42,285 bases of DNA from Actinomycetes bacterium. Lineage in GTDB: Bacteria; Actinomycetota; Thermoleophilia; BMS3ABIN01. The stretch spans positions 1 to 42,285 of the forward strand of contig JAJYXB010000020.1 of assembly GCA_021791195.1 (NCBI GenBank), given 5' to 3'. The position numbers were made by a program, and so were the translations under genes. Position 1 is the first letter of the stretch; each line of letters opens with the position of its first letter. Positions 30,486 to 34,326 of the stretch are shown one piece after another. Below the pieces are notes generated by a model that was not told the origin of the DNA, ran no database searches, and saw nothing but the letters and a program-made list of their open reading frames with translations.

Positions 30486-31031
30486 ATGGCCCCTGTTCCT
30501 GAAATAAACCCCGCAATACTTGCCCGCCAGGTATTGAAGGCGGCGCTTGAGTACAGCCGGCTGCCGGATCCGCCGGATGGTGAGTTCTACCGGCGGCGCG
30601 CGGCCTGTTTTGTCAGCATCAAGAAGAACGGCGAACTGCGTGGCTGCATGGGGACGCTGGAGCCGGTGGAAAATGACCTGGCGCATGAGCTCATCCGCAA
30701 CGCGCAGGCGGCCGCCTTCTCCGACCCCCGTTTCCCGCCGCTGGTGCTGGGAGAGCTGTCGGCGCTGAAGTTCAGTGTCGATGTCCTCAGCGCCGCCGAG
30801 CAGGTCAATTCCCATGCGGAGCTCGACTGCAAGAAATACGGCGTCATCGTCGGTTGCGATTACCGCCGCGGCGTGCTGCTTCCCGACCTCGATGGCGTTG
30901 AGTCCGTGGAGCACCAGCTGCAGATCGCCTGCCAGAAGGCGGGCATCGCCGCCCACGAGGAGTTTCAGGCGCACCGGTTCACGGTTGACCGCTACGATGA
31001 AGACTGGCTGCCCGGACAGCAGCCCGGCTAG
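30486..31031 (+). CDS. AMMECR1-domain protein (AmmeMemoRadiSam system protein A)
   Basis: The 181-residue protein contains the hallmark LRGCMGTLEP, an upstream FVSIKKNGE strand, and KYGVIVGCDYRRGVLLPDLDGVESVEHQLQIACQKAGI, all typical of the AMMECR1 domain. It lies 19 nt after the MEMO gene and is probably cotranscribed. Function is unknown; the recurring pairing with MEMO and a radical-SAM protein suggests a shared modification pathway. It converges with the HPP-family gene, leaving 5 bp between the stops. Confidence 0.9.
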   Translation: MAPVPEINPAILARQVLKAALEYSRLPDPPDGEFYRRRAACFVSIKKNGELRGCMGTLEPVENDLAHELIRNAQAAAFSDPRFPPLVLGELSALKFSVDVLSAAEQVNSHAELDCKKYGVIVGCDYRRGVLLPDLDGVESVEHQLQIACQKAGIAAHEEFQAHRFTVDRYDEDWLPGQQPG

Positions 31032-31036
31032 CGCCG

Positions 31037-31573
31037 TCAGAACCAGAAATGCGGGTAGCGCCTGTGGCGGGAAAGGTTGTTGACCAGAAGCGCCACAGTC
31101 AGCAGGACCAGCGCTCCTGCCCCCACGGGCACCAGCACGAACAAAAACCCGAGATTGTGTACCTTGTCGCCGCCTGTGATCGCAATCAGCGCCGTGGCGC
31201 CGCCCGGCGGGTGGACGGTGTGGGTCAGCACCATCAGAGCAATCGCCAGTGAGACTCCCGCGGAAACGGCCACCGTGCCGCCTCCGAGCATCCTGAAGGA
31301 CGCCACTCCGACAAAAGCGGACAGCATGTGCCCCCCAAGCAGGTTTCGCGGCTGCGAAAAAGGGCTGGTGCTGGCCGCGTAGACCAGCACGGCGGAAGCT
31401 CCGAAGGAGCCGATCAGAAAGACGGAATCGTGCGGCGCGAAGAGGGCGTTCGAGATTATGGCGCACAGTCCCAGTCCCGCTGCCGAGCCCACCAGGGCCC
31501 AGAACGCCTCCCGGGGATGAGGCCAGGCCGGCCTCTTGCCGCCGCCTCTCATCTTCAGTAAATAGTCTTTCAT
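31037..31573 (-). CDS. HPP-family integral membrane protein
   Basis: The 178-residue protein has about four hydrophobic helices and the family motif HTVHPPGGATALIAI (HPP), plus SFGASAVLVYAASTSPFSQPRNLLGGH. HPP proteins are small membrane proteins; some plant and cyanobacterial members transport nitrite, but most are uncharacterised. It starts 18 nt after the cooS stop and is probably in the same transcript. Whether it serves the CO dehydrogenase, for example in metal or anion supply, is open. Confidence 0.85.
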   Translation of the reverse strand: MKDYLLKMRGGGKRPAWPHPREAFWALVGSAAGLGLCAIISNALFAPHDSVFLIGSFGASAVLVYAASTSPFSQPRNLLGGHMLSAFVGVASFRMLGGGTVAVSAGVSLAIALMVLTHTVHPPGGATALIAITGGDKVHNLGFLFVLVPVGAGALVLLTVALLVNNLSRHRRYPHFWF

Positions 31574-31591: not shown

Positions 31592-33478
31592 TTACGACAG
31601 GCCCAGGCGCCGGCGTTTGTCCTCGATATGCGCGATGATCAGCGCCGCCGCGTTTTCAGGATCGTCCTCGACGGCGACCTTGCCGCCGGTCAGCCCTTCG
31701 ACATCCTGTGTGAGCACGCGCGTGACCAGCTCGCTTCCGGTTACCGGCGGCACCGGGGAGAGATGGGTGAAGAGGCCGTAGGCCACCGAGAAGAAAGCAT
31801 CGGCCACCGCTTTTTGTTCCAGCCATTCGGGCGCCGAGACCGCCACGGGCAGTTCGGATGTGTCCACGCTGAGCGTGCCGGCTATGGCGGCGGCGACGTC
31901 GGCGATGCGGCCGATGTCAGTGCAGGAACCGAACGACAGCACCGGCGGCACTCCCAGGGAATCGCAGACGGCCCGCAGGCCGGGCCCCGCCAGGGCGGAG
32001 GCATCCGGCCCGGTAAAACCGGCGTTCTGCAGCGTCGAGCTGGTGCAGCCGCCGGTCACTACCAGGATATCGCTGGCGATCAGCCGCTCCGCGATCTTGA
32101 TGATATTGCAGCCGCGCGCTGACGGGCTGGCGGTCGTGCAGCCGACGACAGCAGCGATGCCCCGGATGCTGCCGGAAGCGATCGCGTCCACCAGGGGCTG
32201 GACGCTGCCTCCCAGCGCAGCGACCACCGATTCGGTGGAAAAGCCGGCGACGCTGTCGCGGCTCTCCTGCGGGACGGTGACCTCGCCGCGTTCGGCGAAC
32301 GCCGCCACCGCGCGCTCGAGGATCTCCCGGGCGGTGTCTGCTGCGGTCTGCGGCGTATGCTCCAGGCGCTCGACGCCGCTCATCCTCACCGCCTGATCGG
32401 TAGTGACCAGCCTGGTGGCGAAGCGCTCGGCGTATTCCGGCAGCGAAGGGATCGAGCAGTTGTAGTCCATCATCACCAGATCGATGGCGCCGGTGCCGAG
32501 AGCGAATTCCTGGTGCAGCCAGTTGCCCAGCTGGCCGGCGAAAGCGCCGCCGCGCTGCAACAGCTCCTGGCCTTCGCACATGGAGCCATAAACCTTGATG
32601 CCCGCGGCTCCTGCCGCGCCCGCCATCTGCCCGAACTCCTCGCTAGCCGCGAGCTCTGCCACCAGCGAAGCCAGTAGCGGCTGGTGGCCGTGGGCCACAA
32701 TGTTAACCGTGGCAGGATCCAGCACTCCCAGGTTGGTGGAGGAGCCGCCGATGACAGCGCCTCCCAGGATGATGTCCTGGAGCCGGTTGATGGCGTGCAG
32801 GCCGGCATAGGCATTGGCGATGGAGAGCTTCATCGCCGTAAGCAGCAGGTCTACCGGATCGTTGTTGACGCTGGTCATGCATTTGACCAGGGCGGTGCGG
32901 ATCTCGGAATTGACGCCGCCGGGCATGATGCCCAGCTCGCGCCAGACTGCCACCCGCCCGGCGGGGGCCAGCGCTTCCACCAGCGCCAGCTCTTCGGTGT
33001 CGGGCTTGTTGAGCTCGTGGATGAAAAGTCCGGCGACTTCGCGGGCCAGGACCGCCACCGGCTGGCCGGCGTCGATTCCCAGCGCCTCAGCCAGCGACTC
33101 GAGCCGGGAAACGTCCCTGACGGTGAAAGCGCAATCATCCCCGGCGGCGGCAAGCAGGGCCCTGGCGGCATTCTCGGCATGGTACGTGTTTCCGGCCGTG
33201 CCGATGGCGGCTTTTTGCAGCAGGTTGCGCGCCACGATCAGGTCGGGCGAGGCGCCGCAGACCCCCGCGGGCGATTTGGCCGTGATCCGGCAGGGCCCGT
33301 TGGCGCACAGAACGCAGCAGGTTCCCTGAATCCCCTGCTTGCACTGGGGCTGCTGGCTCTCGTAGCGGTCGAAGACCGTCGTCATGCCGGCATCATGGAC
33401 GGAGGCGTCCATCGCGCACAAGGCGGCGTCGGCGCAAAGGCCGTCGCATTCCGTAGTTCCTGTTTCCCGGTTCTGCAT
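31592..33478 (-). CDS. cooS: Ni-dependent carbon monoxide dehydrogenase, CooS type
   Basis: CooS oxidises CO with water to CO2, two electrons and two protons. The 628-residue protein has the N-terminal cluster ligands QQPQC (Cys46) and TCCVLCANGPCRI (Cys54, Cys55, Cys58, Cys63), and Cys74. These fit the D and B clusters, with spacing like Rhodospirillum rubrum CooS. C-cluster residues are present: AHGHQPLL (His), SMCEGQE, DYNCSIPSL, VVGCTT, TGGCTSSTL and FGSCTDIGRI. Local contexts differ from the common ICCTGNE and VGCNN forms, so it is a divergent clade. A further N-terminal Cys group (CDGLC..ALC) is unusual. No cooF, cooC, acetyl-CoA synthase or CO-linked hydrogenase lies nearby. An operator overlaps its promoter. 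Confidence 0.92.
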   Translation of the reverse strand: MQNRETGTTECDGLCADAALCAMDASVHDAGMTTVFDRYESQQPQCKQGIQGTCCVLCANGPCRITAKSPAGVCGASPDLIVARNLLQKAAIGTAGNTYHAENAARALLAAAGDDCAFTVRDVSRLESLAEALGIDAGQPVAVLAREVAGLFIHELNKPDTEELALVEALAPAGRVAVWRELGIMPGGVNSEIRTALVKCMTSVNNDPVDLLLTAMKLSIANAYAGLHAINRLQDIILGGAVIGGSSTNLGVLDPATVNIVAHGHQPLLASLVAELAASEEFGQMAGAAGAAGIKVYGSMCEGQELLQRGGAFAGQLGNWLHQEFALGTGAIDLVMMDYNCSIPSLPEYAERFATRLVTTDQAVRMSGVERLEHTPQTAADTAREILERAVAAFAERGEVTVPQESRDSVAGFSTESVVAALGGSVQPLVDAIASGSIRGIAAVVGCTTASPSARGCNIIKIAERLIASDILVVTGGCTSSTLQNAGFTGPDASALAGPGLRAVCDSLGVPPVLSFGSCTDIGRIADVAAAIAGTLSVDTSELPVAVSAPEWLEQKAVADAFFSVAYGLFTHLSPVPPVTGSELVTRVLTQDVEGLTGGKVAVEDDPENAAALIIAHIEDKRRRLGLS

Positions 33479-33557
33479 GTGCGCTCCTTTTGATGATGCT
33501 GGCTAATATTTGGTTTTCCGGACGTCGGGACGTCCTGGCCGCAAGAGCATATAGCAA

Positions 33558-33585
33558 GATAAACACTGTGTCAATAGTGTTTATC
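33558..33585. promoter_or_regulatory. Perfect inverted-repeat operator overlapping divergent cooS and regulator promoters
   Basis: GATAAACACT (33558-33567) and AGTGTTTATC (33576-33585) form a perfect 10-bp inverted repeat with an 8-bp spacer. On the minus strand the spacer region contains TTGACA (33574-33569) with TATGCT 17 nt downstream, a likely cooS promoter. On the plus strand TTTATC (33580-33585), a 17-nt gap and TATACT (33603-33608) form the probable regulator promoter. A dimeric regulator bound here would block both. Confidence 0.8.
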
Positions 33586-33645
33586 CGGGCAGGCAAATAG
33601 CGTATACTTTGAACTGCGCTACAACCGCGAACCGCTGGAGAGGAT

Positions 33646-34326
33646 TTGGCAGCAAGCAGCGACGAAATCACCAGGATCCTGGCGGATCCGACCAGGATGA
33701 GGATATACCGTCACGTCATCGCCGCCGGCGGCGAGCCGGTCACGGTCACCGGCGTCGCCGGCAGCTTCGGCCTGCATCCTAACGTGGCCAGGATGCATCT
33801 GGAGAAGATGACGGCCGGTGGGCTGCTGGAATCAGAAGTGTTCAAGGCTGGCAACGGCGGCCGTCCCGGGCGCCGCTATCGCGTGGGCGGCGCCGTTACG
33901 GGCCAGTACCCGCCGCGCGACTACCGCCTGCTGGCTTCGATCGCGCTAGGGGCCATCGAGAACGGCCTGCGGCCGGAAACCGTGGCCCGCCGCGCCGGTG
34001 TCGAGGAGGGGAAAAAGCAGCTGGCGGCCGCCGGCCTGGCCGCGGAAAGCCCGCTGCCGGTCCGGATCAGGAGCCTGAAGACGATCTTCGACGAGCAGGG
34101 ACTGTTCGCCCGGATATCCAGCGACGACCAGGGACGGCTGAACGTCGATGTCCTGAACTGCATCTTCCGGGAGCTCTCCGGGGAGACACAGCTGGTCTGC
34201 AGCCTGCATCACAGCCTGGTCCAGGGCATCTGTGAATCCCATTTGGGGAAGATCCGCCTTGCGAGCCATTCGGGCATCTCCAAAGGTGGACATAATTGCC
34301 GTTTTCTCATAACACCGTTGTCGTAG
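33646..34326 (+). CDS. Cysteine-rich winged-helix regulator, SufR/ArsR-like
   Basis: The 226-residue protein begins with a winged helix (ITRILADPTRMRIYRHVIAAGGEPVTVTGVAGSF...HPNVARMHLEKMTAGGLLE, then the GRPGRRYRV wing). The C-terminal half has four spaced cysteines (LNCIFREL, QLVCSLHH, QGICESHLG, HNCRFLI), like the Fe-S or metal binding tail of SufR-type regulators. The start is TTG at 33646 with GGAGAGG just upstream. Divergence from cooS across a shared operator suggests it senses CO, redox state or iron-sulfur status and represses cooS and itself. The identity of the signal is inference. Confidence 0.8.
   Translation: MAASSDEITRILADPTRMRIYRHVIAAGGEPVTVTGVAGSFGLHPNVARMHLEKMTAGGLLESEVFKAGNGGRPGRRYRVGGAVTGQYPPRDYRLLASIALGAIENGLRPETVARRAGVEEGKKQLAAAGLAAESPLPVRIRSLKTIFDEQGLFARISSDDQGRLNVDVLNCIFRELSGETQLVCSLHHSLVQGICESHLGKIRLASHSGISKGGHNCRFLITPLS

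Follow-up and report, generated by a model that had tools for sequence, protein, structure and literature searches.

One operator and its regulator alternate between a clade-D CooS and cNOR in an actinobacterial family

Comparison of the window (the whole 42,285-nt stretch of DNA analyzed here) with related genomes revealed that one regulator gene and the palindromic operator in front of it alternate, as divergent partners, between a clade-D CooS and cNOR, the cytochrome c NO reductase encoded by norCB. We lean somewhat towards the interpretation that the regulator is an Fe–S repressor of a nitrosative- or redox-stress module, which would be released by NO and would have either enzyme under its control. 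The coordinates of the features are compiled in table 1.

Table 1. Features of the cooS–regulator region and their positions in the window
Feature	Position	Strand	Remarks
Regulator, 226 aa	33646-34326	+	ArsR-type winged helix, ~residues 4-87; V4R/TRAPPC3-like sensor domain, ~87-226
Proposed metal/Fe-S ligands	C172 34159-34161, C185 34198-34200, H188 34207-34209, C218 34297-34299	+	invariant; ligand role putative
Second CooS, clade-D type	31592-33478	-	B-, C- and D-cluster ligands all kept; N97; K556; three N-terminal Cys
HPP-family membrane protein (TM_HPP)	31037-31573	-	cooS operon; 18 bp between cooS and its start
Operator, perfect inverted repeat GATAAACACT-N8-AGTGTTTATC	33558-33585	.	core CACTNTGTCAATAGTG at 33564-33579
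cooS -35 box TTGACA	33569-33574	-	inside operator center
cooS -10 box TATGCT	33546-33551	-	17-bp spacer to -35
Regulator -10 box TATACT	33603-33608	+	TATAAT or TATACT in 8/9 genomes
Weak regulator -35 TTTATC	33580-33585	+	in operator right arm

The operator, its promoters and its distribution

The first-pass annotation had placed a perfect palindrome between cooS and the regulator, which the sequence bears out: the full operator reads GATAAACACT-GTGTCAAT-AGTGTTTATC, with zero mismatches between the arms, and sits in the 167-bp intergenic region between the two divergent genes. The underlying gene calls were also correct, with the enzyme matching TIGR01702 at 721 bits and the regulator carrying an N-terminal HTH_20 domain (Pfam, E 2.5e-12). 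Dinucleotide shuffles of the intergenic region produced a perfect 10-bp inverted repeat (spacer 0–20) in 6 of 3000 cases, and the conservation of the element is stronger evidence for an operator than these shuffle statistics. A scan of 399 genomes of the class with the core CACTNTGTCAATAGTG returned eight exact matches, compared with none for the backward control, and all eight lay between the regulator and its divergent partner (cooS in five, norC in three). When one mismatch was allowed in the 19 family genomes, the core was present in 9/9 of those with an intact regulator and absent from the others, the remaining one-mismatch sites lying within unrelated ORFs. The same element was found upstream of the orthologous regulators in the family genomes. 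In the relatives with the cooS–regulator pair, where the first-pass annotation had proposed looking for it, it recurred in all five other genomes, four with the exact core and one with a single mismatch; its absence there, which that annotation had named as a finding that would refute it, was not observed. The accompanying proposal to search elsewhere in the genome was also carried out; the operator is unique in its own 2.15-Mb genome, with no second site at ≤3 mismatches, and within the window no second site appeared even at ≤3 mismatches (0 in 100 shuffles). A wider regulon in this genome was considered and rejected, the examined sites with one to three mismatches being inside or beside unrelated ORFs, and none was found because the backward control yields equally many weak matches. 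Since the core is specific to regulator sites across genomes, operator and regulator look like a single-target, self-regulated switch.

The asymmetric operator center coincides with a perfect TTGACA −35 box on the minus strand, and TTGACA-17-TATGCT was the sole promoter-like site found between positions 30950 and 34400 of the window. Across the family, eight of nine genomes have TTGACA at the center and one has TTGACT; a hexamer resembling a −10 box lies 15–17 bp downstream. The regulator −10 box is placed just beyond the other arm of the operator. That the palindrome covers both promoters, as had been claimed, holds for cooS and is likely for the regulator, whose −35 candidate in the operator arm is weak. 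A protein bound to the palindrome would cover the cooS −35 box and abut the regulator promoter, and for this reason the arrangement favors repression by the regulator.

The operator is recognizable beyond the closest orthologs, since the more distant regulators of the f5 genomes (G057, G082, and G086) retain a version of it, for example CACACTGTGTCAACGGTGTTTA. Upstream of the regulator in f5 genomes (L012–L017), a second, different palindrome, such as TTTACACTGCCTAGACAGTATAAA, adjoins the operator-like site, and the f3 paralogs (L018–L031) have another autoregulatory-looking upstream motif in common, approximately CACTACN6CGTGTTTACA.

A winged-helix regulator with a V4R/TRAPPC3-like domain

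Apart from HTH_20, Pfam detected in the regulator only a weak MetOD1 match, with neither a CRP-type or PAS heme domain nor an Rrf2 domain of the NsrR/IscR type. The first-pass view that its architecture differs from those of CooA and RcoM is upheld; these two regulate CO dehydrogenase genes, as the present protein would, but they are heme proteins of CRP or PAS type, and no such domain occurs here. A structure search with the AlphaFold2 model (mean pLDDT 81.7) matched residues 4–87 to ArsR-type winged helices (Z 13.1 to 6j05) and residues 87–226 to TRAPPC3/Bet3/V4R folds (Z 10.4 to Bet3/TRAPP); the matches include no solved SufR or ArnR relative. The predicted sensor-domain fold also resembles Zn-binding TRAPPC3 and the aromatic-binding PoxR/MopR domains. 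The four spaced cysteines described in the first-pass annotation are reduced to three by comparison: C172, C185, and C218, together with H188, are invariant in 24/24 homologs from Actinomycetota and Bacilli, and C196 is not conserved among them. These residues, the CX12C spacing, the ArsR-type winged helix, and the V4R/TRAPPC3-like fold suggest that an Fe–S-type sensor, as had also been proposed, is the most likely kind of regulator.

The closest published description is that of the NO-sensing repressor ArnR from Corynebacterium glutamicum, which combines a winged helix with a TRAPPC3-like sensor domain and has a conserved His close to its three Cys (PMC12343034); it carries a [4Fe-4S] cluster, and its DNA binding is abolished by NO (PMC12343034). 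Judged against that description, the regulator has the same features, namely an ArsR/MarR-type winged helix followed in the predicted structure by a V4R/TRAPPC3-like C-terminal domain, and three conserved Cys (179/193/223 in ArnR) with a conserved His near them; both proteins are actinobacterial with NO-related targets, putative ones in the case of the regulator. They differ in these targets, which are narKGHJI and hmp for ArnR and cooS–HPP or norCB here, and in Cys spacing (x13/x29 in ArnR versus x12/x32). SufR (Rv1460 and cyanobacterial SufR) likewise combines a winged helix with three C-terminal Cys in CX12C spacing, and the Mycobacterium tuberculosis protein requires three Cys with this spacing (PMC6034842). 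SufR is an Fe–S repressor of its own or a divergent operon, a logic the regulator would share if it holds a cluster, and M. tuberculosis SufR responds to NO; the repressor function of SufR-type proteins is lost under NO and reactive oxygen species (ROS) (PMC9045647). However, the regulator scored 13.6 bits with the SufR model TIGR02702, far under the cut-off of 178.8, and it has no adjoining suf genes: its neighbors are cooS, norCB, or miaA, with nifS–nifU only in f5 homologs. The control of norCB and hcp by NsrR/HcpR follows a comparable logic, an NO-answering Fe–S (or heme) regulator over NO reductase genes, although the protein families (Rrf2 or CRP/FNR) are unrelated.

Some neighborhoods deserve separate mention. 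In the window, the regulator and miaA ORFs overlap at 34296–34326, where miaA begins, and because of this overlap both genes may be co-transcribed and co-translated. In f5 genomes (L073 7358–8476 and relatives), the gene divergent from the regulator encodes a CxxC-containing DUF166 protein. The Bacilli homologs examined (L106–L137) have as divergent neighbor a small gene that looks Spx/MgsR-like (ArsC-type); a cooS or nor partner was rejected for them, this being the nearest divergent gene, and the cooS/norCB partner rule holds only within the actinobacterial family.

The second CooS and its exchange with norCB

The CooS of the window is a second copy, nearly every family genome also having a canonical CooS with ~35% identity to it. 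In the tree it groups with the CooS-V lineage (100/100 support), apart from canonical CODHs. Its acid–base His is replaced by Asn (N97), the catalytic Lys (K556) is retained, and the Cys that CooS-V swapped for Glu is still present as Cys301. Placement against the 24 published groups (PMC6344411) kept it out of D-1, the CooS-V hybrid-cluster subclade, by virtue of Cys301; filing under D-3 was rejected, the alignment giving Asn rather than Tyr at the acid–base position. The type II D-cluster, full C-cluster, Lys, and three N-terminal Cys agree with D-3 and the Asn with D-2, such that the enzyme appears to lie between the two groups. D-3, the nearest published group, occurs in carboxydotrophs (PMC6344411), and CO chemistry by the window CooS is possible because every C-cluster ligand is retained. 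CooS-V of Carboxydothermus hydrogenoformans (7b7q; PMC9311411) resembles it in belonging to the same deep CODH lineage, in its lost acid–base His, and in having no adjoining CO accessory genes, but it has an Fe/S/O hybrid cluster and Glu in place of Cys295, whereas the window CooS keeps that Cys. CooS-V, the clade-D enzyme that has been studied, shows no CO turnover and reacts with hydroxylamine (PMC9311411), and a stress role for clade D is believed but unproven according to a recent survey (PMC13056359).

In three sister genomes (G016, G017, and G008), the divergent partner is a NorC-like cytochrome c with NorB instead of cooS. The NorB sequence aligned with the solved cNOR 3o0r_B at E 3.6e-118 and with the cbb3 oxidase 3mk7 at E 5e-4, which places it, at the sequence level, with cNOR rather than with cbb3 oxidase. 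The exchange can be followed in place: G016 and G008 have regulator–norCB in the AMMECR1–miaA slot that holds HPP–cooS in the window. The cassette adjoins AMMECR1 in the window, G004, and G016. On the other side, the regulator, or what is left of it, leads into miaA in the window as well as in G005, G016, and G008. A regulator remnant is still beside miaA in G017, norCB occupies the slot in G006 with regulator and operator gone, and the slot is empty in G001, G002, G003, G011, G012, G013, and G015. None of the 19 family genomes combines any two of the second CooS (present in six), cNOR (in four), and true Hcp (in one), a pattern whose weight is limited by the draft state of genomes. Because the regulator tree does not settle the order of its three branches (cooS of genus 1; norCB; cooS of genera 6 and 7), a single origin of the cooS association is possible.

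Several loci appear degraded or rearranged. At the expected operator place in G006 (L140 3560–3830), a worn TATGTCAAAATAG alone is left. G005 (L010/L067) conserves a deletion remnant in which only the 66-residue end of CooS (residues 563–628) persists, the operator is lost, and the regulator lacks an in-frame HTH region. In G004, of the same genus as the window, a frameshift splits cooS (L063 8936–10836; residues 1–261 and 254–628 in different frames), the operator is kept, and the regulator is present for no fewer than its first 175 residues, where the contig ends.

The HPP gene comes after cooS in G000 and G011, is also located behind it in G018, stands beside regulator–norCB in G017, and is absent behind cooS in G004, G013, and G015. 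An IS200-like transposase ORF, judged by eye, separates cooS from HPP in G018 (L061 6074–6511). A DUF438-hemerythrin-PAS protein adjoins norCB in G017 (L065 5653–7188) and is possibly related to Fe–S repair or NO.

Candidate signals and the role of the clade-D enzyme

The interpretation that we favor begins with an ArnR/SufR-like dimeric repressor whose putative Fe–S cluster would be held by C172, C185, C218, and probably H188. In its holo form it would bind the palindrome, blocking the −35 box of the cooS–HPP promoter and limiting its own transcription. Damage to the cluster by NO or another agent would then release the regulator and allow cooS–HPP to be made, and the clade-D CooS may act in nitrosative or redox defense, the role that norCB would hold in the sister genomes. 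NO is the favored signal within this scheme. In Desulfovibrio desulfuricans 27774, exposure to NO induced cooS, an HPP-family gene, and hcp (2.01, 1.75, and 3.17, respectively, in the published table of expression changes; PMC5701242); the NO-induced cooS and HPP genes correspond to the gene pair of the window operon, although this cooS may belong to another clade. A cooS is also within the sigma-B oxidative/nitrosative set of Clostridioides difficile (PMC7494833), and nitrite is transported by an HPP protein in chloroplasts and cyanobacteria. NrfA-type nitrite reductase was not found in the window's own genome or in the cooS genomes, and its lack in the former leaves no evident source of NO from within.

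The CO-dependent switch originally envisaged, in which the regulator senses CO via a metal or Fe–S center and induces cooS for CO oxidation, appears improbable. It would explain why the regulator stands divergent from a CooS with complete C-cluster ligands, in a pair kept, now or formerly, in six genomes. Nevertheless, it is not supported because sister genomes pair the same regulator and operator with norC–norB; moreover, the genes for cooC, cooF, hydrogenase, and ACS are absent beside the window cooS, the acid–base His is missing, and the canonical CooS of the genome family is the other copy. The first-pass annotation had named control of an unrelated gene set as an argument against its own proposal, and this is partly what the relatives contain, with norCB as partner in three sister genomes and nifS–nifU directly behind the more distant f5 homologs. 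What the regulator senses is probably iron–sulfur stress and not CO.

Such a sensor could also report general Fe–S, iron, or oxygen status in the manner of SufR or IscR, inducing cooS–HPP or norCB whenever clusters fail and without specificity for NO. The f5 nifS–nifU genes, the SufR-like CX12C spacing, and the inactivation of SufR-type repressors by both NO and ROS (PMC9045647) fit this reading; the alternative partner norCB suggests NO in particular, and we consider the general sensor rather unlikely. V4R/TRAPPC3 domains can bind Zn, which counts against the Fe–S repressor, and the fold likeness to Zn-binding TRAPPC3 and to aromatic-binding PoxR/MopR, along with a CooS that may need Ni, could point to a cluster-free Zn/Ni or small-molecule sensor controlling cooS for metal homeostasis. 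Three Cys and one His invariant across two phyla, as well as nifS–nifU and norCB as partners, fit Fe–S better, and the cassette has no metal transporter, making this sensor very improbable.

Within the preferred interpretation of an NO-released Fe–S repressor, the clade-D CooS might itself be a nitrosative-stress enzyme, reducing NO, hydroxylamine, or N-oxides, that stands in for cNOR by a swap under one unchanged V4R-type Fe–S repressor and operator, with HPP as its membrane partner. We offer this proposal tentatively and with some doubt, and action of clade-D CooS on N-oxides would be a novel and as yet unproven step. The findings add cooS and norCB to the genes associated with ArnR/SufR-like regulators, and they caution that a cooS-linked regulator need not be a CO sensor. 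The partner swap hints at the purpose of the puzzling clade-D CooS, and the alternation of cooS and norCB under one regulator and operator gives the clade-D CODHs a concrete, testable role.
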